A DNA stretch of 64,000 bases, from NCBI RefSeq assembly GCF_000963925.1, contig NZ_BAMV01000010.1, forward strand, positions 1 through 64,000, given 5' to 3'. Position numbers and translations under genes: made by a program. Numbering within the stretch: position 1 is the first letter of the stretch; each line of letters begins with the position of its first letter. The notes below the pieces were generated by a model, which ran no database searches, had not been told where the DNA came from, and saw nothing but the letters and a program-made list of their open reading frames with translations. Below are positions 6,292 through 64,000 of the stretch, piece after piece. The DNA comes from Acetobacter cibinongensis. Lineage in GTDB: Bacteria; Pseudomonadota; Alphaproteobacteria; Acetobacterales; Acetobacteraceae.

Positions 6292-7623
6292 TCAAGCAGG
6301 TGCCCCGGCCGGGGCATCGCTCACAGAAAAATTACTCAACCGGTGCCCCATACGCTGCCGCTTGGCATGCAGGTAGGCGCGGTTAAAGGGATTAACCGGT
6401 GTTTCAAGGCCGATTCTCTGGCGCACCAGAAATCCACGGGCTTCCAGAGCTCGCACCTTGTCCGGATTATTTGTCAGCAGGTCTAACTGGCCCACGCCCA
6501 GCTCCCGCAGAATAGCGGCGGCGGCTGTCCAGTCCCGCGCATCTGTTGCAAAACCCAGCTTGTGGTTGGCATCTACCGTATCCAACCCGGCATCCTGCAA
6601 CTCATAGGCCCGGATTTTGTTGGCCAGACCTATGCCGCGCCCTTCATGGCCGCGCACATACACCAGCACCCCGCATTCTGCCTGCCCAATAGCCCTTAAC
6701 GCTGCATGAAGCTGGGTTCCGCAGTCACACCGCAAAGACCCAAGGGCATCCCCCGTCACACACTCGGAATGCATACGCACAACCGGCACAGCACCTGCGG
6801 CTACCGGATTACCTTTTACCAGCGCCACATGCTCCACCCCCAAACGGTCACGGAAGGCATGGATCATCAGGTCTTCTCCGCCATAGGCGCTTGGCAAGGC
6901 TGCCTCTGCCAGATCAGCGAGGGTTTCCTGCTCCGGCACGGGGTGCGCTTGGGCTGCCGTATCTGGCAACGCTGCCAGACCATGCTCTTTTACCCACTCC
7001 ACCAGCTCCGCAATGGAGATAATGGGCATGTCGTATCTGGCCCCATACACTTCCAGTTGCGGGCGGCGCGCCATGGTGCCGTCCTCGTTCAGAATTTCGC
7101 AGATAACTGCTGCGGGCTGCAAACCGGCCAGACGCACAAGGTCAATAGAGCCTTCAGTGTGGCCAATACGCTCCAGCACGCCGCCCGGCTTGGCCCGCAG
7201 CGGGAAAATATGGCCGGGCGTGGCAAGGTCAGCCGGCTGTGCCGTATCAGCAATAGCAGTCAGAATGGTATGGGCACGGTCCGCTGCGGAAATACCGGTC
7301 GTAACGCCTTCTTTGGCTTCAATGGACACTGTAAAACCCGTGCTGTGGCGGGCCGTGTTGTTGGTGACCATCATGCGCAGGCCAAGCCGGTCCACATGCG
7401 CAGGCGTGAGCGGGAGGCAGACCAGACCACGGGCATTGGTAATCATGAAGTTCATGGCTTGCGGGGTCATGAACTCCGCCGCCATGACCAGATCGCCCTC
7501 GTTTTCACGGTCTTCATCATCCACCATAATGACCATACGGCCGGCACGGAGCGCTGCGACGGCTCTCAGCAGCGCTACAGATGGCTGGGAGGCATTGGCC
7601 ACCTTGTTCACTTGGTCTGGCAT
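6292..7623 (-). CDS. ribBA: Bifunctional DHBP synthase / GTP cyclohydrolase II
   Basis: A 443-residue fusion. Residues about 15-215 are DHBP synthase (RibB): DDEDRENEGDLVMAAE, TGISAADRA and the GHTEGSIDL active-site segment, making 3,4-dihydroxy-2-butanone 4-phosphate from ribulose 5-phosphate. Residues about 245-430 are GTP cyclohydrolase II (RibA): the zinc cysteines in SECVTGDALGSLRCDCG, then HEGRGIGL and the LLTNNPDK segment. It thus supplies both branches of the riboflavin pathway. The Q of the common QEGRGIGL motif is H here. Its start overlaps the end of ribE by 16 bases, indicating coupling. Confidence 0.96.
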   Translation of the reverse strand: MPDQVNKVANASQPSVALLRAVAALRAGRMVIMVDDEDRENEGDLVMAAEFMTPQAMNFMITNARGLVCLPLTPAHVDRLGLRMMVTNNTARHSTGFTVSIEAKEGVTTGISAADRAHTILTAIADTAQPADLATPGHIFPLRAKPGGVLERIGHTEGSIDLVRLAGLQPAAVICEILNEDGTMARRPQLEVYGARYDMPIISIAELVEWVKEHGLAALPDTAAQAHPVPEQETLADLAEAALPSAYGGEDLMIHAFRDRLGVEHVALVKGNPVAAGAVPVVRMHSECVTGDALGSLRCDCGTQLHAALRAIGQAECGVLVYVRGHEGRGIGLANKIRAYELQDAGLDTVDANHKLGFATDARDWTAAAAILRELGVGQLDLLTNNPDKVRALEARGFLVRQRIGLETPVNPFNRAYLHAKRQRMGHRLSNFSVSDAPAGAPA

Positions 7624-8210
7624 AGAACCTCCACGTATTTGGCAATAACGTCCACTTCCACATTCACGGCGTCACCAATCGCAAGCGTGCCGAGTGTTGT
7701 GTGCGTCCATGTGTGCGGAATAATCATGAGTGCAATGGTGAAAACTTCATTCTGCACCGGCCCAATTTCATTCAGCGTCAGGCTGATGCCATCCAGCGTG
7801 ATGGAGCCTTTTTCCACCATGTAGCGGCGCAGTGTTTCTGGCACCTCAAACACCACACGACGCGCATCCCCTGACGGTGTACAGGCCGCGTAACGCGCCG
7901 TGCCATCCACATGGCCCTGCACAATATGGCCAGACAGGCGGGTAGCAGGAGTTACTGCGCGCTCAAGGTTAACGCTGCTGCCTGCCTTCAAGACACCCAG
8001 TGTTGAGCGGTCGAGGGTCTCACTGCTGATAAAAAATCGCGCATGGCCTGTTGCCGCAGGCTCTACTGCGGTCAAACACACACCGTTCACGGCAATGCTT
8101 TCCCCTTCAGCAATATCTTTCAGGCCTGTATCAACATCGATAACGAGCGACTGGTCTCCCGCATCTGCCTTGAGAACATGACCGAGGGATTCAATTATTC
8201 CGGAAAACAT
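7608..8210 (-). CDS. ribE: Riboflavin synthase, alpha subunit
   Basis: A 200-residue protein of two similar lumazine-binding halves; it dismutates two lumazines to riboflavin and the ribitylaminouracil. The start MFSGIIESLG is the conserved family N-terminus, so the ATG at 8210 is preferred over an upstream in-frame start at 8237. Motifs seen: SIAVNGVCLTA in the first half, GHIVQGHVD, and SITLDGISLTLNE in the second. Its 5' end overlaps ribD by 16 bases and its 3' end overlaps ribBA by 16, so the four rib genes are translationally linked. Confidence 0.96.
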   Translation of the reverse strand: MFSGIIESLGHVLKADAGDQSLVIDVDTGLKDIAEGESIAVNGVCLTAVEPAATGHARFFISSETLDRSTLGVLKAGSSVNLERAVTPATRLSGHIVQGHVDGTARYAACTPSGDARRVVFEVPETLRRYMVEKGSITLDGISLTLNEIGPVQNEVFTIALMIIPHTWTHTTLGTLAIGDAVNVEVDVIAKYVEVLCQTK

Positions 8211-9271
8211 GCTTGCTCCTGCGTACACCGTGCCCACTCCGGAAACAGAGCAAGGGGGGTTACTTCCTGTCGTGTTGAAACTGAAAAATGGTCCACCCCG
8301 GCAGCGTTCTGACGAATAGTCAGCCAGTCATCCCACAGGTTCTGCTCTTGCAGGGCGGAGAGAAGTTTTGGGCCTGCCTCTACCATCAGCCACAGCGCAT
8401 CCGTCTGGGCCAGAAGCTCTGGCAGGGCTTCGCTATTGGGGCAGAACAGCACATCAAACCGTTTTTCGGCCTGCCCCACCCACTCTGGAGCAACATTCGC
8501 CTTTTGCCCGCATACCACCACTAAGCGGCGCCGGTTTGCGTGGTCAGGCACATGCCGCACGGTAAAACCCGGCTGGTCGGCAGCAATGGTGCCTGTACCG
8601 GTTATAATACCATCTGTCGCACGGCGCAGGGCGTGGGCAAAGGTAAGGGATTCCGGCGTGGTAAATGTTGTCTGGCCAGCGGGTGGCACCATAGTGCCCG
8701 CACTGTTGAGTGCCTGCTTCACCGTTATCCACGGTCTGCCCTGCGTTGTTTTCTGGACAAAAGGCGCAAGCAACGCCTTGCACTGTGCAAAAAGTGCTGC
8801 GCCATTAGGAGCCTGCTCCAGCCAGTGCACTGTGCGTCCCGCAGCGGTCAAAGCCTGGGCTCCGCCGCCTGCCACATGGGGGTTGGGGTCTGCACACCCA
8901 ATCCAGATGTCTTTGACCGGGGTTTCAAGCAGGGCCTCGGTACAGGGCGGTGTACGGCCTGTGTGGTTACAGGGTTCCAACGTCACAACGGCAGTCCGCA
9001 CCCGGTCTAGCACACCGGCAGCCCGTGCCTGTTCACACGCCAAGCGTTCCGCATGGAACTGGCCCGCCTTGTGGTGGGCAGCAAGGCTCAGTACCTCACC
9101 GTCCTCCCCAAGCAGGGCACAGCCTACCGCAGGGTTGGGAGCTGTCTGGCCAACAAACCGAAAAGCCTCGGCCACAGCAGCCTGAAACGCACGTTTCACC
9201 TGCTCTGGCACAAACTCTGGCACTGTAGTTAAGGGGGAGTTTTGCAACGCCCTGACCCCTTGTTGTCTCAA
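8195..9271 (-). CDS. ribD: Riboflavin pathway deaminase/reductase RibD
   Basis: Bifunctional enzyme, up to 358 residues. The N-terminal deaminase domain (about 25-165) has the zinc site HAE (residues about 73-75) and PCNHTGRTPPC; the C-terminal reductase domain (about 175-355) carries the NADPH-binding region with DGIITGTGTIAADQP. It converts the GTP cyclohydrolase product to 5-amino-6-ribitylaminouracil phosphate. The start is uncertain: a TTG at 9271 gives the longest frame, a TTG at 9247 has AAGGGG eight bases upstream, and a GTG at 9223 lies closest to the conserved helix; no ATG fits. It is the first gene after the FMN riboswitch. Confidence 0.93.
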   Translation of the reverse strand: MRQQGVRALQNSPLTTVPEFVPEQVKRAFQAAVAEAFRFVGQTAPNPAVGCALLGEDGEVLSLAAHHKAGQFHAERLACEQARAAGVLDRVRTAVVTLEPCNHTGRTPPCTEALLETPVKDIWIGCADPNPHVAGGGAQALTAAGRTVHWLEQAPNGAALFAQCKALLAPFVQKTTQGRPWITVKQALNSAGTMVPPAGQTTFTTPESLTFAHALRRATDGIITGTGTIAADQPGFTVRHVPDHANRRRLVVVCGQKANVAPEWVGQAEKRFDVLFCPNSEALPELLAQTDALWLMVEAGPKLLSALQEQNLWDDWLTIRQNAAGVDHFSVSTRQEVTPLALFPEWARCTQEQACFPE

Positions 9272-56753: not shown

Positions 56754-57722
56754 ATGCAGCAGCCCCCTCCCTCCATACCCACGTCTTCTTCGGTCGGTTC
56801 TGAGGCAGGACTGTCCGTGCCAGACCAGCACCTTGCTCAAACCCGTGCTCCACAAGGTGCGGGTGGTTATGCAGCCGCGGGTAAAGGGCAACGCCGCAGG
56901 CGGTTAAGGCGGCGGGTACGCACAAAAATCAAGGGCACGTCGTTCAACAGGCTCATTCCCAACATTTTAACAATGTTGGGACTGTGCGCCGGGTTAACGG
57001 GCATGCGCTTTGCCGTAGACGGGCGTTTTCAGGCTGCTGCCATTGCCTTGGTTATTGCCGCCTGCATTGACGGGCTGGATGGGCGCATTGCCCGGCTGCT
57101 GCGTGGGTCCACCCGGTTTGGGGCTGAGTTTGACAGCTTGTCGGACTTTGTCTGCTTTGGTGTTGCGCCGTCTTTCATGCTGTATTTCTGGGCTTTGCGG
57201 GAGGGCGGTCGATATGCTTTTCTGCCATGCCTTATTTTTACAGTCTGTATGGCTCTGCGCCTTGCACGCTTCAACGCCATGCTGGATGGGGAAGAAGACA
57301 AACCCAAATACGCCAGTAACTTCTTCACAGGGGTGCCTGCGCCTGCCGGGGCTGGCTTGGCCCTCTTCCCGCTCTTTTTAGGGCTGGAAGCTGAAAAGCT
57401 GAATATAGACTGGCTTTATCATCTCACGCGCCTTCCCTACATGCCCAGCTTTACCCTGATCAGCACAGCTCTGCTGCTGGTCTCTACGCTGCCTGTCTGG
57501 TCATTTAAAAACTTCAAGGTTCCGGCAAAATATGTTCTGCCGGTTATGCTGAGCACCGGTATTTATACCGTTATTCTGGTGGCTGACCCGTGGGCGGCAC
57601 TGGCTGCTGCCGGTGTTATTTACATGCTGCTGCTGCCCCTCAGCCGCCTGAGCTTCAGCCGCCTAAAAAAAGCCGCTGAAGACCTTCAGGAAGATGTAGA
57701 AGACGAAGACGCGCCAGCATAA
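56754..57722 (+). CDS. pssA: CDP-diacylglycerol--serine O-phosphatidyltransferase
   Basis: A 322-residue membrane enzyme with about eight hydrophobic segments after a basic N-terminal region (RRRRLRRRVRTKIKG, about 47-61). The CDP-alcohol phosphotransferase signature reads DGLDGRIARLLRGSTRFGAEF then DSLSD (about 102-127), with all conserved Asp, Gly and Arg in place. It makes phosphatidylserine, the substrate of the upstream psd. ATG at 56754 is preferred; a GTG two codons earlier is also possible. Its 3' end overlaps the convergent hyfI-like gene by 37 bases. Confidence 0.95.
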   Translation: MQQPPPSIPTSSSVGSEAGLSVPDQHLAQTRAPQGAGGYAAAGKGQRRRRLRRRVRTKIKGTSFNRLIPNILTMLGLCAGLTGMRFAVDGRFQAAAIALVIAACIDGLDGRIARLLRGSTRFGAEFDSLSDFVCFGVAPSFMLYFWALREGGRYAFLPCLIFTVCMALRLARFNAMLDGEEDKPKYASNFFTGVPAPAGAGLALFPLFLGLEAEKLNIDWLYHLTRLPYMPSFTLISTALLLVSTLPVWSFKNFKVPAKYVLPVMLSTGIYTVILVADPWAALAAAGVIYMLLLPLSRLSFSRLKKAAEDLQEDVEDEDAPA

Positions 57723-58195
57723 GCAGCCGCTGGCGCACGCTGCCCGAACAAGGAACATAACCCGTCCAGCACCTCCTGCGGTGTAGGCGGGCACCCCTTG
57801 ATACGCAGATTAATATGAACCTTACGGTTCAGCCCCCCCATAATGGTATAATTTTCCGGGAACAGGCCGCCATCTATGGCGCAGTTTCCAACACAGATTA
57901 CACCTTTGGGCGTAGGCATGGCCTTCCATGCGGCTTCCAGTACCGGGGCCATGGCATACGTGAGTGCGCCGGTAATCAGCAGGACATCAGCGCCCTGCGG
58001 CGTAGAGGCAAAACCAAACCCCGCACCCTGCATGTCGTAACCACCCGCAGCCAGAGCTTCCAGCTCCATCCCGCAGCCGCCACAACCGCCTGTATCCACG
58101 TGAAACAAGAGAAGCGGCCAGCGCGGGCCAACGGGCTTTAACCGCGCGCTACCCTGCCGGAAGCTGGCGTCAAATACGGCCCGGATAAGCCCCAT
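57686..58195 (-). CDS. HyfI/NuoB-like small subunit with intact [4Fe-4S] ligands
   Basis: A 169-residue protein of the NuoB / group 4 hydrogenase small-subunit family. It keeps the four cysteines expected for the proximal [4Fe-4S] cluster: C38 and C41 in GGCGGCGMELEAL, C105 in GNCAIDGG and C135 in GCPP. DVLLITGALT and VGNCAIDGGLF closely follow the HyfI/HycG pattern. A Ser-rich tail ends the protein. It is the last gene of the six-gene hyf-like operon, 30 bases behind the large subunit. Electron transfer to or from a quinone or unknown site on the large subunit is inferred. Confidence 0.88.
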   Translation of the reverse strand: MGLIRAVFDASFRQGSARLKPVGPRWPLLLFHVDTGGCGGCGMELEALAAGGYDMQGAGFGFASTPQGADVLLITGALTYAMAPVLEAAWKAMPTPKGVICVGNCAIDGGLFPENYTIMGGLNRKVHINLRIKGCPPTPQEVLDGLCSLFGQRAPAAAYAGASSSSTSS

Positions 58196-58225
58196 AATTA
58201 CTGCCTTCTCTTCTTTACTGTCTGC

Positions 58226-59725
58226 TTAGCCATCCAGCGCGGATGCTGTCACACCCAACGATGCCCGGATAAGGCCAAGGTCCGCCACATTTTGCCCTGG
58301 CAGAACGGCTTCCAGCGCCAACAGGGATGAGTATGCCGGGTCACGAACAAAAGCGTGTTCAACCCGACCATCCTTTAACCTGACCCAATAGAGAACAGCG
58401 CCCCACGGCCCTTCAGCCATGCCAATGCCTTCTCCATCCTCATAATACAAGTCTATGCGCCCACCTGCTGACAAGCCTAGCTTTGGCCCTGCCGTATTCA
58501 GCATACGCAGGCTCTCACCCACTTCTTCCAGCAGTATGATCGCACGGTCTTCCACCGCCCCGTCATGCCGCCCGGATGTAAAACGCCACAGGCCGTCATA
58601 AGCCCGCATGTCACGGCGATAATCGCAATCGCCGCCGCCAGCACGGGCTACCGGGCCATCCAGCCCCACTTGCTCCAGTAGGGCGCTATCCACAACACCT
58701 AGCCCGACAAGGCGGCTTGAAAGCCCCGGGTAGCTTTGCCATAGCGTGACCAAATCAGGGTAAATCTCCTCTCCCAATTCAGCCAGCTTGCTGCATAATT
58801 CACCCATAGCTGCGGCTGTACGCAGGTTCACACCACCCGGTACGCAATGGTCCATCATCAAACGCGAGCCAATAATGGGCGCGGCTTCTGTCAGCAGCTT
58901 TTCCCGGAACCACATGCACCGTGATGCCACCAGCACGGCTCCGGCCTGCCGGGCAATACCAGCGAGTGTGAACAGATGTGTGCTAACACGTTCAAGCTCC
59001 AGCACAACAACCCGCAGAAGGCTGACCTCTGGCCCCATGCTCTCGCCACACGCGGCCTCAACAGCCTGACAAAAGGCAGCCTGATGCGCTGCACACGCCC
59101 CGGCCACATAACGGCCAGTCAGACGGTTGGCATCCTCCACGCGGCATGTCTTTAAACGCTGAGCCATGCCTCTATGCGCGTATCCCGTTACGGTTTCAGC
59201 GTAACGAATGACGTCACCATCCAAAGCCAGCGCAATATGTAGGGGAGACTCACGCCCACCTGATGCTGGTCCACTCCCCGCCGTTACACCCCCTGCTGCC
59301 TGCATGGCCTCAGACGGCTGAAATGTCAGCATGGTCTTGTTACTACCGGCCCCACCGGGTGCTGCTGCCAGCGGCATTGTCTCTGCCCAGACATCATGAT
59401 CCACCAAGGGCCGGACATCCGTTGCCCACATGGCTTCTGCACCATACAGGTCAAAAATCATGCGTTCATACAGGCTGGAAACAGCACGCGCGGGAGAAAG
59501 TGCCGGGTAACGCCCCCCTTCCAGCATGAGAGAGGCTGCCAGAGGCTGGGTCCCATGCGGCATGAAGAGGGCATGCACCGCCACACCATCACACCACAGC
59601 CCGACAAATGGCAGGCTGTCATGCTTCAGACCCTCTACAAGGTCACGCCATGCCATTTCGTCCAGTTGAAAGCGCCATGGTGTTTCTGTGGGCTGACCGG
59701 CGTGAATATGCGCGACAACGTCCAT
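58226..59725 (-). CDS. HyfG/NuoCD-like large subunit lacking the NiFe cysteines
   Basis: A 499-residue protein. Residues about 1-120 match the NuoC-like N-terminal part of HyfG (ERMIFDLYGAEAMWATDVRPLVDHDVW at 87-113), residues about 165-499 the NuoD/hydrogenase large subunit (GYAHRGMAQRL at 181-191). Where NiFe enzymes have R-x-C-G-x-C-x3-H, this has RYVAGACAAH (205-214): Arg and His are in place but both metal cysteines are replaced. The C-terminal DPCxxC is also absent; the end reads like NuoD (ADLGLIRASLG). It therefore cannot carry a NiFe site. The ATG at 59725 overlaps the upstream stop by one base. Confidence 0.88.
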   Translation of the reverse strand: MDVVAHIHAGQPTETPWRFQLDEMAWRDLVEGLKHDSLPFVGLWCDGVAVHALFMPHGTQPLAASLMLEGGRYPALSPARAVSSLYERMIFDLYGAEAMWATDVRPLVDHDVWAETMPLAAAPGGAGSNKTMLTFQPSEAMQAAGGVTAGSGPASGGRESPLHIALALDGDVIRYAETVTGYAHRGMAQRLKTCRVEDANRLTGRYVAGACAAHQAAFCQAVEAACGESMGPEVSLLRVVVLELERVSTHLFTLAGIARQAGAVLVASRCMWFREKLLTEAAPIIGSRLMMDHCVPGGVNLRTAAAMGELCSKLAELGEEIYPDLVTLWQSYPGLSSRLVGLGVVDSALLEQVGLDGPVARAGGGDCDYRRDMRAYDGLWRFTSGRHDGAVEDRAIILLEEVGESLRMLNTAGPKLGLSAGGRIDLYYEDGEGIGMAEGPWGAVLYWVRLKDGRVEHAFVRDPAYSSLLALEAVLPGQNVADLGLIRASLGVTASALDG

Positions 59726-60846
59726 CAGAATGCCCCTAGCATCATGGCAAGAGGCACCAGAAACCCAGTAACAACCAGCACCACGCACGCCACGCGGCCC
59801 GCCGCATCCTGCGGCCACACCGCATGCCCTTCACCCTGTACGGGCACCGCCCGCACAACAGCGCATAAAATACCGGCCAGTGTCAGAACTGTAAAAACCC
59901 ACGACCAGTCGCTCATCATGGACAGTAAAAGCAGACACCCGACAAACGGTGCGCCGGGTGGAAAACACGCCAGTGTTCGCGCAGCCCAAGAGCGCTCAGA
60001 GCGGCTCCCGCCTGCCAGGCACCACCCGCACAAAAACAGAAGAGCGGCGACATCTGCCTTCGTGCCCACAGCAATAAGCGCCAGTGCGGAAGGAAAGGTC
60101 CGGAACATACGCAGCCCATCATGCGACCTGCCAGCACACGCCGTTAGCCAGACAGAGGCAAGCCCTGCAGCAATCAGGGCCGTATCAAACGCGTCCCCAC
60201 CATGCGGCCTGAGCCGCATGGACAGAAGAATCGCTGCCCCGGCAAAAGGCAGGAACAACAATGTGTCGTTCTCCTCACGCCAGGGTTGACCAAACGGTGT
60301 GAGACCAGCCAGCATCACAATACCGCACGCCAGCAAAAGACCGGACGCGGCCTGCCCCGCAGGCAGCAGCAAACCGGCCAGCACCAGAAACATGCCCACA
60401 GACCCTGTGCGCAGCAACGCCCAGCCCGCCATAGCCTGCCCGGCAGGGCGGCTGACAACAAACACACCATACGCCAGAGAGGCCTCAAGAATCCCCAAGC
60501 CCACGATAGGGTCCGGCGTTACACAGGCCAGACCGGCCAAGGCGGTGGAAATATGAGGCAACCCACGCAGAAAACGGTTTGGGATGGTATTGGCCTCAAG
60601 CACCGTCAGCAGCAAACCAAAGGCGAGCATGACGCGCCCGGCACGTTGCACGGGGTCATCATCCCATCCGGTAGCGGCGGCTCCCGTTGCCGGAAACAGG
60701 AAAACAGCAGCAGCCAGCACGCACCCTCCGCCAGCCATCCACACAGCGACCTCCCTGCTCCGGGGAGTATTCAGGCTCATCACCACGGCAGCGCCGAGCA
60801 AGGGCCATGCAAAAGCCAATGCGGCCAGAAAAACAGGAAATGTCAT
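59725..60846 (-). CDS. HyfF-like antiporter subunit, shortened
   Basis: A 373-residue membrane protein with about 11 hydrophobic segments, in the position of HyfF (NuoN/M-like, about 525 residues in E. coli). AGLTPFGQPWREEN (about 187-200) lines up with the family's lysine and His-x-Trp-Leu-Pro-x-Ala-His channel segment but keeps only scattered positions, and FPPGAPFVGCLLL (about 307-319) matches the later P-P-x-G-x-F segment. The strongly conserved channel Lys and His residues are not recognisable. Start overlaps the hyfE-like stop by four bases. Confidence 0.7.
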   Translation of the reverse strand: MTFPVFLAALAFAWPLLGAAVVMSLNTPRSREVAVWMAGGGCVLAAAVFLFPATGAAATGWDDDPVQRAGRVMLAFGLLLTVLEANTIPNRFLRGLPHISTALAGLACVTPDPIVGLGILEASLAYGVFVVSRPAGQAMAGWALLRTGSVGMFLVLAGLLLPAGQAASGLLLACGIVMLAGLTPFGQPWREENDTLLFLPFAGAAILLSMRLRPHGGDAFDTALIAAGLASVWLTACAGRSHDGLRMFRTFPSALALIAVGTKADVAALLFLCGWCLAGGSRSERSWAARTLACFPPGAPFVGCLLLLSMMSDWSWVFTVLTLAGILCAVVRAVPVQGEGHAVWPQDAAGRVACVVLVVTGFLVPLAMMLGAF

Positions 60847-61508
60847 GGTGTATCGGCCCCATCATAACGAGGCGGCTTGGGCACATAATCAGGATGGGGC
60901 GCAGCATCGGCAGCCCCAAGAGCGCTCCCCGGCTCCTTTTTACCTTTTTTGCGTTTGGATCCCTGACGACGACCGGAAGCCCTGACCACAGCCAGACGAG
61001 GCAGAACACGATGAACGCACATACCGCCCAATACGGCAATCAGCACCCCTGCCAGAACGGTAACGCCCACAACCATAAGGTGTTTTTGTATGATGCCGGA
61101 TAACAGCACGCCTTCAACACATGTCAGCAAACCGGCCCACTGCCAGACCATAGCCTGCCGACACGTTACAGCAACCAGACCAGCAAGAACGATGCAAAGG
61201 CCGGATGGAAACGCCATCACGCCGGGGCGTGACCCTGCCAGCATCAACACAACCATAAGGCCAAGAGCCAGAAATGGTACGGCTGGGCCGCTCCGCTCTG
61301 GTAGGTTATCCTGCTGATAATAGCTGAGAAACCAGACCGGACCGATGGCAAAAAGCAGGGCAAATGCTGCCCCCGCCTGATGCAGGGGGTCCGTGCCATC
61401 CACAAGCATTGCTATTGCGCTAACAACGCCTAACGCTGACAAAAACCCTATGCCACGCGCTACAACACACAGTGCCAAAAGGGGCGCTAATATCGCGGCT
61501 AGTGTCAT
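60843..61508 (-). CDS. HyfE-like membrane subunit
   Basis: A 221-residue protein with about six membrane segments followed by a basic, hydrophilic tail (from about 178: GRRQGSKRKKGKKE, then a Pro-rich end). Size and position fit HyfE, the NuoK-related subunit of hydrogenase-4. WQWAGLLTCVEGVLLSGI (about 123-140) resembles the NuoK/HyfE segment that carries a conserved membrane Glu, and that Glu is kept here. Overlaps its neighbours by four bases on both sides (ATGA). Confidence 0.7.
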   Translation of the reverse strand: MTLAAILAPLLALCVVARGIGFLSALGVVSAIAMLVDGTDPLHQAGAAFALLFAIGPVWFLSYYQQDNLPERSGPAVPFLALGLMVVLMLAGSRPGVMAFPSGLCIVLAGLVAVTCRQAMVWQWAGLLTCVEGVLLSGIIQKHLMVVGVTVLAGVLIAVLGGMCVHRVLPRLAVVRASGRRQGSKRKKGKKEPGSALGAADAAPHPDYVPKPPRYDGADTP

Positions 61509-62527
61509 GGTTGCACGCCCCCGTCATCACCATAAATCGGGTTTTGCAGGGCAGCAGCGGCTGTTGTGCTGGAAGGTTCCTGCTGTGGGGTCAGGACAGG
61601 GTAGGCCACCTGCCACGCCAGAAGGCCTAGCAGAAAAACCGTAGCCAGCCGTACCCGCCCCTGCTTGGGCAGAGGCAACACCACCAGATGTGTCAGTGCC
61701 AGCAAGACAGCGGCGATAGCTACCTTTACCAACCACGCACCCCCGCCTTCCAGACAGCCGATGCCCCATGCTTCCATCCCTGCCGTGGCGGGAAGGGACA
61801 GCGTGCCGGACCAGGCGATATCCCCCGCCAAAGTAACCCAGCATAACCGTACACAATCCCGCGCCAGCAACCACAGGCCACGGTCAGGGCCGGAAAGAGG
61901 GCATGCGCCTTCCTCATCACTTTGCTGGGTGCGCCATGCGACCGCAAAAAGGGCAACGCCCATCAGCACAAAGGGGGCTCCATTCCCTAAAGGAGAGAGG
62001 CTCCGTATCTGGGCCAGAAAAGCAGCGAGATCCTGCCCACCGACCATCACCAGAACAGGTATCAAGGCAGGCAACAATAATATGTCTGCTATCAGCACCA
62101 TATAGCCGTTCAGCGCATAGCGGCCCGGCTGCGCCACCAGTGGCAAAGACAAAAACAAAGACGCCAGAACCAGCACGGCAGAGATCAACAATAGCCCCGG
62201 TGCAGGAAAACCCGCTGGCAACAGCATAAACACCGGCACCATACCGCAACCCAGCACGGCAAGCACAAAACCTGCCCGCACAACCCCTGCACCAGCTTTA
62301 TGATCCGGCTCAGCAAGGCCCGGACGGGTAAATTGGTGCCGTATTTCCTGCCAACGGCCACTCACCCTGTAGCGGCATTCGCCAGCCATTCGGCCACCCA
62401 GCCGTTCAACCCAGCCGGTAAAAAAAGGAGCGGCCACCAGCATCAGCACGGTCTGGCACCCCAATGCGGCAAGGCACAGTAGGCTCCAGCCCCAGGTCAG
62501 CACGAAGGAAGATGCAGGCACTGTCAT
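61505..62527 (-). CDS. HyfC/NuoH-like membrane subunit
   Basis: A 340-residue membrane protein with about eight segments, in the HyfC position. FFTGWVERLGGRMAGECRYRVSGRWQEIRHQF (spanning about 35-66) follows the NuoH/HyfC first loop (Gly-Trp-x-x-Arg, then Arg-x-Gly-Pro), with the Pro lost. The later loop that in HyfC reads THLELTMIHEAM...SG is here DRGLWLLARDCVRLCW...WSG (about 219-244), without the conserved glutamates. These residues line the quinone/proton path in complex I, so coupling may differ. Four-base overlaps on both sides. Confidence 0.7.
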   Translation of the reverse strand: MTVPASSFVLTWGWSLLCLAALGCQTVLMLVAAPFFTGWVERLGGRMAGECRYRVSGRWQEIRHQFTRPGLAEPDHKAGAGVVRAGFVLAVLGCGMVPVFMLLPAGFPAPGLLLISAVLVLASLFLSLPLVAQPGRYALNGYMVLIADILLLPALIPVLVMVGGQDLAAFLAQIRSLSPLGNGAPFVLMGVALFAVAWRTQQSDEEGACPLSGPDRGLWLLARDCVRLCWVTLAGDIAWSGTLSLPATAGMEAWGIGCLEGGGAWLVKVAIAAVLLALTHLVVLPLPKQGRVRLATVFLLGLLAWQVAYPVLTPQQEPSSTTAAAALQNPIYGDDGGVQP

Positions 62528-64000
62528 TGTCCGACCAACAGCCCAAACAACAGCCCGGCAGCCAGAAAAAGCAGGATCAGCACAAGGCCCTGTGCTTCAC
62601 ACCATGCCACACTTCTGAACAGTATAGCCTGCACGTAACGACCACCTGCGGCCGTTTTATCAACAATGGCCCATTCAGAGGGCGTTTGGTTCTGTAAGCC
62701 TAGGAAAACCAGAAGCATGGTCCACACCGCTGCCTCTTGCTCCGTGGGCTCAGCTTCTACCGCTTTATCCACCTTTATAAGAGGCGCGCCCTCCTGCCAG
62801 CGCTGTCGCGCAGCCTGCAACCTTGGGAAGGGATAAAATTTACACACACGGCCCAAAGCAATAACGCCACCCACACAGACCATCAGCGCGGCCACACTAT
62901 AAAGTGGCGTAAAACTCACTGGAGTGTCCGTAAACCAGACGGATAAAGCTTTTGACCACATGAAGTCTCGTGCATCCACGCCAACAAAAAGGTGGTCTTG
63001 TAGCGCTAGCCATGCCCCCGGCAACACAGAAACCACACAGGCTGCCACAAGACAGATAACCGCTGGCAGAAGCGGAAAAAAACCGCTCCGAATACTCTGC
63101 CCAGACAGACGAGCAGAAATGCCCTGCCCGCCCCGAAATGCAGCATATCCCAGCCGTACCAGCCCTAGAATACCCAGTGCCATGAAGCCTGCGGCCCCCA
63201 CCAGCACAAGAATTGTACCCAGAGCCTGTATGGGCGGCGCAGCACGCGTGGCCAGTTCACCCGCGCTCACCAGGCACCACAGGACAGAAAACCCACCCAG
63301 CGGTGGCAGCCCGGAAAGCAGAAGCAAAGCCACGCTCAGCACGGCAAGACCAGCAACGCTGCAAATAAGAGGCGGAAAGCCTGTAGGCTCAGAGCTCCCC
63401 TCCGCATCCTTCTGTGGCTGACAAAGCCACAGCAAAGCCAACATAGCCAGCAATGGTGCCCCCAAGCCAAGTTGGGCAGCCGTTCTAAACTGGTCCATGC
63501 CCTCTAGCGTGGTTGCCAACGCCAAGGCCAATAGTACGACCAAGGCACCAAAACCGGCGCACGCCAACCCTGCGGCAATACGATGAACCTGCTGTGCCCG
63601 CAGTGCCTGCACGCAGCCACCCAATGCAACACAACAGCCACTCAGGATGAGCAGGACCTGAAACACAGGGTGCAGCACACCTGTCTCGGAAAGCAGGCGG
63701 CCCAGCAGAAAAACCCCGATACCGACGGGCACAGTCGCTTCAGGCCCTTTTTGTGCGGAAACTGACCAGCCCAGTAACAAAACCATAAGGCAGAGCAAAG
63801 GTGGGCAAAGAGGGCTGTCCGCAGGAATGCACGCAGGCACAACAGCCGCAGGTAACCAGACACCCTGCCGCCCCTTGCCTGCAAGCAACACCAGAGCTGT
63901 CCCTGCCAACAACCCGAACACCAAGGGCGAGAGCGCCAAAAACGCCAACCCTGCCAGAACGCACGCCATACCCCGGCGGCCCTGGCTCATGATACCGCCA
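62524..64000 (-). CDS. HyfB-like antiporter subunit (partial, runs off the right edge)
   Basis: At least 491 codons of a NuoL/M-type membrane protein in the HyfB position. The frame is open to the window edge; an ATG at 63990 exists, but the family's N-terminal region is missing, so the gene probably begins beyond the window. LLGWSVSAQKGPEATVPVG (near 62-64 kb, about 72-90 counted from that ATG) aligns with the GWLPxAHPxAPxPVS channel motif, with His changed to Gln; the following VHRIAAGLACAGFG aligns with the KRLLAYSSIEN segment. LSGLPPLGGFSVLW is the conserved P-P-x-x-G-F motif. Four-base overlap with the HyfC-like gene. Confidence 0.7.
   Translation of the reverse strand, partial: GGIMSQGRRGMACVLAGLAFLALSPLVFGLLAGTALVLLAGKGRQGVWLPAAVVPACIPADSPLCPPLLCLMVLLLGWSVSAQKGPEATVPVGIGVFLLGRLLSETGVLHPVFQVLLILSGCCVALGGCVQALRAQQVHRIAAGLACAGFGALVVLLALALATTLEGMDQFRTAAQLGLGAPLLAMLALLWLCQPQKDAEGSSEPTGFPPLICSVAGLAVLSVALLLLSGLPPLGGFSVLWCLVSAGELATRAAPPIQALGTILVLVGAAGFMALGILGLVRLGYAAFRGGQGISARLSGQSIRSGFFPLLPAVICLVAACVVSVLPGAWLALQDHLFVGVDARDFMWSKALSVWFTDTPVSFTPLYSVAALMVCVGGVIALGRVCKFYPFPRLQAARQRWQEGAPLIKVDKAVEAEPTEQEAAVWTMLLVFLGLQNQTPSEWAIVDKTAAGGRYVQAILFRSVAWCEAQGLVLILLFLAAGLLFGLLVGQ

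Follow-up and report, generated by a model that had tools for sequence, protein, structure and literature searches.

Acetobacter cibinongensis carries a six-gene operon, hyfB-C-E-F-G-I, which phylogeny and alignment of its predicted proteins show to be a derived energy-converting hydrogenase-related (Ehr) operon, descended from the ordinary Ehr of Alphaproteobacteria. What is distinctive about it, judging from the aligned residues, is a further loss: nearly all proton-path residues of HyfB, HyfC and HyfF have disappeared, as have the Ser motifs that ordinary Ehr carries. Published work already covers Ehr complexes and the absence of NiFe ligands from them; an Ehr lacking proton paths is what appears to be new here. 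Among the titles listed in searches of the open PMC literature, none was on the complex in Acetobacteraceae or on Ehr without proton paths.

Ehr has been defined by a large subunit that is related to those of group 4 hydrogenases but lacks the NiFe cysteines (PMC6349859), and its function is given as unknown or as a suspected redox-coupled charge transport (PMC6349859, PMC10284858, PMC7304191).

Results

Organization of the operon and its neighborhood

The window, that is, the whole stretch of DNA analyzed, comprises 64,000 bases of A. cibinongensis (GCF_000963925.1, contig NZ_BAMV01000010.1, positions 1-64,000, forward strand). All six genes lie on the minus strand at its right end. The 3′ part of hyfB, encoding an antiporter-like subunit (62524-64000), is followed by hyfC (NuoH-like, 340 aa; 61505-62527), hyfE (NuoK-like position, 221 aa; 60843-61508), hyfF (a shortened antiporter-like subunit, 373 aa; 59725-60846), hyfG (the HycE/NuoD-like large subunit, 499 aa, without NiFe cysteines; 58226-59725) and hyfI (the NuoB/HycG-like small subunit, 169 aa; 57686-58195). 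The ORF coordinates bear out the layout described in the first-pass annotation, with successive overlaps of 4, 4, 4 and 1 bases and then a 30-base gap upstream of hyfI. For hyfG, the ATG at 59725 is the most likely start and yields both the 499 aa and the 1-base overlap with hyfF; a 530-aa frame opening on GTG is a 5′ extension that runs into stop codons in several relatives. Chance ORFs are ruled out as the origin of the six frames, since relatives have the same order and frames.

Extending the sequence to the right places the GTG start of hyfB, which encodes 560 aa in full, at about 64206 of the contig, some 206 bases past the window. No HyfA-, HyfH- or dehydrogenase-like gene, and no ferredoxin gene, adjoins the operon within 12 kb to the right, as read by eye, in keeping with the earlier claim of a complex lacking an adjacent electron-entry gene. 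Nor did a conserved electron partner appear beside Ehr elsewhere: the ten ORFs read by eye on the upstream side of ten sampled operons all differ, and some of them may not be genes. The NuoD- and NuoB-type genes of the genome are separate, on another contig (C105).

To the left, the operon is flanked by pssA and psd, which are convergent with it; to the right, a methyltransferase-like gene in the operon's own orientation is followed by a divergent gloB. The methyltransferase-like gene (PF08241; at 7369-8151, minus strand, in locus L003) stands upstream of hyfB in 25 of 28 genus loci and may be on the same transcript as the operon.

Identification of the subunits

HyfI and HyfG are recognized by Pfam (PF01058, 1.9e-23, and PF00346, 2e-20) and are the subunits that remain recognizable across distant derived lineages. 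The best PDB sequence match of HyfG is HycE (7z0s_E, 1.2e-21), with Mbh second (6cfw_L, 2.1e-20). In contrast, a Pfam search of HyfB, HyfC, HyfE and HyfF returned nothing meaningful, the single match at E ≤ 1 (HyfB) being at chance level. The same search applied to a control, an ordinary Ehr operon of the same class (L083), recognized B (PF00361, 1.6e-51), C (PF00146, 2.7e-38) and F (PF00361, 1.6e-52), with E reaching 7.7e-4 for PF00420, below the cut-off of that family.

The names of B, C, E and F are based on iterative profile searches, profile-profile comparison (97% for HyfC, 94.7% for HyfB) and, in the case of F, a predicted fold. The iterative search links the window HyfE to ordinary HyfE, with weak hhalign support (76%). 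HyfF, the sole subunit modeled, gave no match against PDB sequences, and its predicted model has an antiporter-like fold with a low-confidence C terminus. HyfE varies in length in the genus: that of A. malorum (7765-8967, plus strand, of L006) has 400 aa, its membrane part being followed by a long, acidic tail rich in Pro and Glu, and ORFs of similar length occupy the same place in L007, L008, L096 and L097.

The large subunit has lost the NiFe site

HyfG reads RYVAGACAAH (residues 205-214; 59084-59113, minus strand) at the position of the first NiFe cysteine pair and SLGVTASALDG (58229-58261, minus strand) at that of the second. Compared with R-x-C-G-x-C-x3-H and a C-terminal DPCxxC, the NiFe motifs, alignment upheld the first-pass reading that the former is replaced and the latter gone. 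Both cysteine pairs are missing in the window HyfG and its aligned relatives, and the operon encodes no NiFe-ligating large subunit. At the same two positions, ordinary Ehr has sequences like RxSGDSTVAY and SFNCSYSG or NKSFNCSYSG; these conserved Ser motifs are gone from the derived branch of Acetobacteraceae. Cavity residues of HyfG close to what used to be the active-site motifs, invariably of a kind in ordinary Ehr, have been replaced as well. Core residues that the window HyfG still has in common with ordinary Ehr include R205, R238, E243, R246, E275, R288 and D292, and further along R361, D368, R370, E432 and E438.

The marks of a group 4 [NiFe] hydrogenase, two CxxC pairs and maturation genes, are thus not those of the window operon: HypD, which acts in NiFe maturation, has no match in the window genome. 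The alignment together with the absence of HypD rules out a NiFe hydrogenase with displaced ligands. HypD is present in 10 of 49 genomes of the genus, and this minority of Acetobacter may include some with a separate NiFe enzyme.

Descent from ordinary Ehr

The kinship to Ehr proposed in the first-pass annotation is supported both by the NiFe-cysteine-free, group-4-related large subunit and by the HyfG tree (65 sequences), which was rooted by midpoint only and holds no reference set of named Ehr. The window clade forms one side of a 100/100 branch (13 sequences) and is nested, with strong support, among Acetobacteraceae sequences that lead back to ordinary Ehr. The well-supported ladder within the family runs from L058/L051/L055 and L054, which are ordinary, through L057, L052 and L059 to the rest; long branches were flagged for L004, L056, L043, L059 and others. 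Such a ladder with intermediates fits residue loss on one stem followed by vertical descent. One genome (G099) has two operons, the derived L052 and the ordinary L053, the latter placed weakly outside the family ladder, and in another (G151) the intermediate L057 is accompanied by two HyfB genes of the ordinary type. Several Acetobacteraceae (G099, G151, G083, G147 and G285) have at least two matches to an Ehr-like HyfB or HyfG.

What Ehr is defined by is found here: the large subunit described above, the descent, and antiporter-like subunits (by predicted fold for F and profile links for B). Since sampled ordinary alphaproteobacterial Ehr also lack the NiFe cysteines and HyfA, HyfD and HyfH, these absences do not set the window operon apart. 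By the cut-offs applied, 338 of 397 family genomes encode the large subunit (E ≤ 1e-22) and 196 of 397 an ordinary-type HyfB (E ≤ 1e-90), so that at least 142 family genomes have the large subunit without an ordinary-type HyfB. The operon is also present in 11 of 11 genomes sampled from a genus whose genomes span only 1.9-2.1 Mb.

Nearly all proton-path residues are lost from HyfB, HyfC and HyfF

In ordinary Ehr sequences, the antiporter Glu, Lys and His residues are still present, as is the acidic loop of HyfC. In loci chosen by hand from the search lists, the two HyfB motifs were found in 18/18 and 14/18 ordinary copies vs. 0/24 derived copies for either, the two HyfC motifs in 18/18 vs. 0/25 each, and the two HyfF motifs in 15/17 and 17/17 vs. 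0/26 each. L057, whose HyfF is in an intermediate residue state, was excluded from these counts, as its contig ends in the locus and its supposed HyfB ORF is HyfF; the L041 locus is truncated where its contig ends, and L056 has no HyfB match. The acidic loop itself (ENxRIPVDNP...HLELTMVHE in ordinary Ehr) is missing in the window HyfC. Ten loci from other genera, taken from 14 new ones (L151, L153, L157 and L163 being left out), gave no motif in nine cases and some in L155.

Residues for ion translocation, which would be expected from the function of Ehr and are no strict part of its definition, are absent from the window operon except for HyfF E121. This residue aligns with the TM5 Glu and is kept in 10 of 11 sequences of the window clade; isolated matches are retained elsewhere, for example a single Glu in the L052 HyfC. 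Independently of any alignment, the window HyfF contains one Lys in 373 residues, and Asp, Glu and Arg persist inside its hydrophobic stretches. Across 30 sequences of the genus, HyfF is 51-88% identical over its length with many invariant polar residues, but the residue conservation seen in the window clade does not extend to other derived lineages.

The small subunit keeps its cysteines in most lineages

The four [4Fe-4S]-type cysteines attributed to the small subunit in the first-pass annotation were located at C38, C41, C105 and C135 of HyfI, which would hold the single candidate Fe-S cluster of the complex. All four are kept in 43 of 43 aligned copies and in 16 of 22 further copies from other genera (59 of 65 overall), and this retention points to some role for the cluster, perhaps a redox one. 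L163, L171 and L167 have each lost one cysteine. The remaining exceptions are three copies from one genus (G100, G157 and G200; L150, L168 and L169) in which three of the four are lost and the frame is kept. There, all six hyf frames are open despite the cysteine loss, with ω of 0.12-0.18 for G, 0.22-0.24 for B, 0.22-0.33 for F, 0.28-0.46 for C, 0.30-0.47 for E and 0.37-0.47 for I, values that come from small dS (0.09-0.20) and include some upstream codons. That a genus without cluster ligands keeps the operon argues that, there at least, it is kept for something besides electron transfer.

In some other genera, HyfI is separated from the other five genes: in G032 and G317 it is found some 4 kb away on the downstream side, and in G085 and G001 on another contig. 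Loss of HyfI in L153, L157, L158 and L162 was ruled out by a whole-genome search, which located it elsewhere in those genomes.

All six genes are under purifying selection

Purifying selection acts on all six genes. In 26 genomes of the genus, median ω (a simple NG86 count over pairs with dS of 0.15-1.5, the pairs differing between genes) was 0.12 for I, 0.15 for F, 0.21 for G, 0.21 for E, 0.27 for C and 0.32 for B. Neighboring genes in the same genomes gave 0.08 (pssA), 0.11 (psd), 0.20 (gloB) and 0.30 (the methyltransferase-like gene). For the 27 pairs common to all six hyf genes, the medians were 0.05-0.14. The 26-genome medians leave out two of 28 loci (L133 and L134) that repeat others (L006 and L007); counting all 28 shifts the medians by at most 0.014. 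Relaxed selection, which the first-pass annotation had named as a sign of decay to be looked for by dN/dS, was not found.

Frames are intact in most genomes of the genus. HyfF was matched in 39 of 49 (E ≤ 1e-3), and the best 30 matches are without internal stop, one of them (G349) being cut by a contig end; of the ten genomes without a match, three (G272, G387 and G117) have the operon with a more diverged F, in G117 by position only. As to frameshifts in close relatives, the other sign of decay named at the outset, frameshift-like breaks occur as exceptions, which may be assembly errors or real decay: hyfC of G698 (L145) and both hyfC and hyfG of G707 (L140) look frameshifted, and hyfF of G711 is in three pieces.

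Discussion

The complex shares with ordinary Ehr the NiFe-free, group-4-like large subunit, the cluster cysteines of the small subunit and the antiporter-like membrane subunits, and with ordinary alphaproteobacterial operons the six-gene order. Of the antiporter Lys/Glu/His residues, the HyfC acidic loop and the Ser motifs, all present in ordinary Ehr, the Acetobacteraceae branch retains almost nothing, and its B, C, E and F have passed beyond Pfam detection. With respiratory complex I (NuoB, D, H, K, L/M/N), it has in common the predicted fold of HyfF and the sequence kinship of I and G; it differs in having no adjoining NADH module genes and, bar the exceptions above, no proton-path residues. 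Pyrococcus Mbh, the second-best solved relative of HyfG, is a NiFe enzyme with more membrane subunits. The closest solved relative belongs to E. coli formate hydrogenlyase (HycCDEG), which differs in having a NiFe site, formate dehydrogenase, ferredoxin-like subunits and a proposed proton path; some HycC antiporter-path residues are reported to be replaced there, and these are few (PMC9474812). According to the same paper, complex I, hydrogenases and Mrp antiporters have conserved their proton paths for billions of years (PMC9474812).

We give roughly even odds to the reading that the derived Ehr persists because it serves as a scaffold in the membrane or as a redox-responsive regulator, and not as an energy-conserving enzyme. 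Such a complex would make no H2 and would not pump protons via the known route, and its subunits would still assemble, with G and I seated on the membrane arm around a single [4Fe-4S] cluster. Against this reading, the four kept cysteines hint at a role, perhaps redox, of the cluster, and E121 and the other charged residues in the hydrophobic stretches of HyfF leave some room for a rewired path. A bolder version, to which we lean less, is that an assembly of this superfamily has given up both redox catalysis and ion pumping and persists across the family branch as a 'pseudo-respiratory complex' that works in the membrane without redox chemistry, with one genus keeping it after loss of three of its last four Fe-S ligands. 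The coupled frames of the first-pass annotation are upheld and joined by purifying selection; its conclusion of a working complex of unknown reaction may be too narrow, because the complex could be something other than a redox enzyme.

A redox enzyme that does not pump, passing electrons from a cytoplasmic donor through the single cluster to a quinone or small molecule in a remodeled G/I/C cavity without conserving energy, seems rather unlikely. HyfI and F are the subunits under the strongest constraint, the HyfI cysteines are nearly always kept, and HyfI and G are what distant derived lineages still have recognizably in common; against this, no donor gene adjoins the operon or is conserved beside the sampled ones, the HyfC loop beside the expected quinone site is lost, and the cysteine-poor genus has kept its operon. 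It is more doubtful still that the antiporter-like subunits move another ion or solute along a path of different residues. The strong conservation of HyfF within the window clade, its invariant polar residues, the retained E121 and the Asp, Glu and Arg left in its hydrophobic stretches would suit such a transporter, but Lys is nearly absent, and since the residues constant in that clade vary in other derived lineages, no common new path is visible. Least probable is a relic in slow decay or hitch-hiking, in favor of which stand wholesale loss of functional residues, the shortening of B and F, the three genomes with frame breaks, the relocated or ligand-depleted HyfI of some lineages and the ω of I, C and E in the cluster-less genus (0.28-0.47). 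Values of ω far below 1 in all six genes speak against decay, as do the many family genomes with the large subunit and no ordinary-type HyfB and the unbroken retention in the genus of 1.9-2.1 Mb.

The assignment to Ehr gives an identity to Acetobacter proteins that are currently annotated as hypothetical. Here, a lineage gave up its proton paths yet keeps all six subunits under selection, a natural experiment in the use of a scaffold without its known chemistry and in which contacts alone hold the architecture. Acetobacter includes non-pathogenic hosts that allow tests of what Ehr complexes do, and in Acetobacter and many of its relatives the complex probably performs a so far undescribed job.
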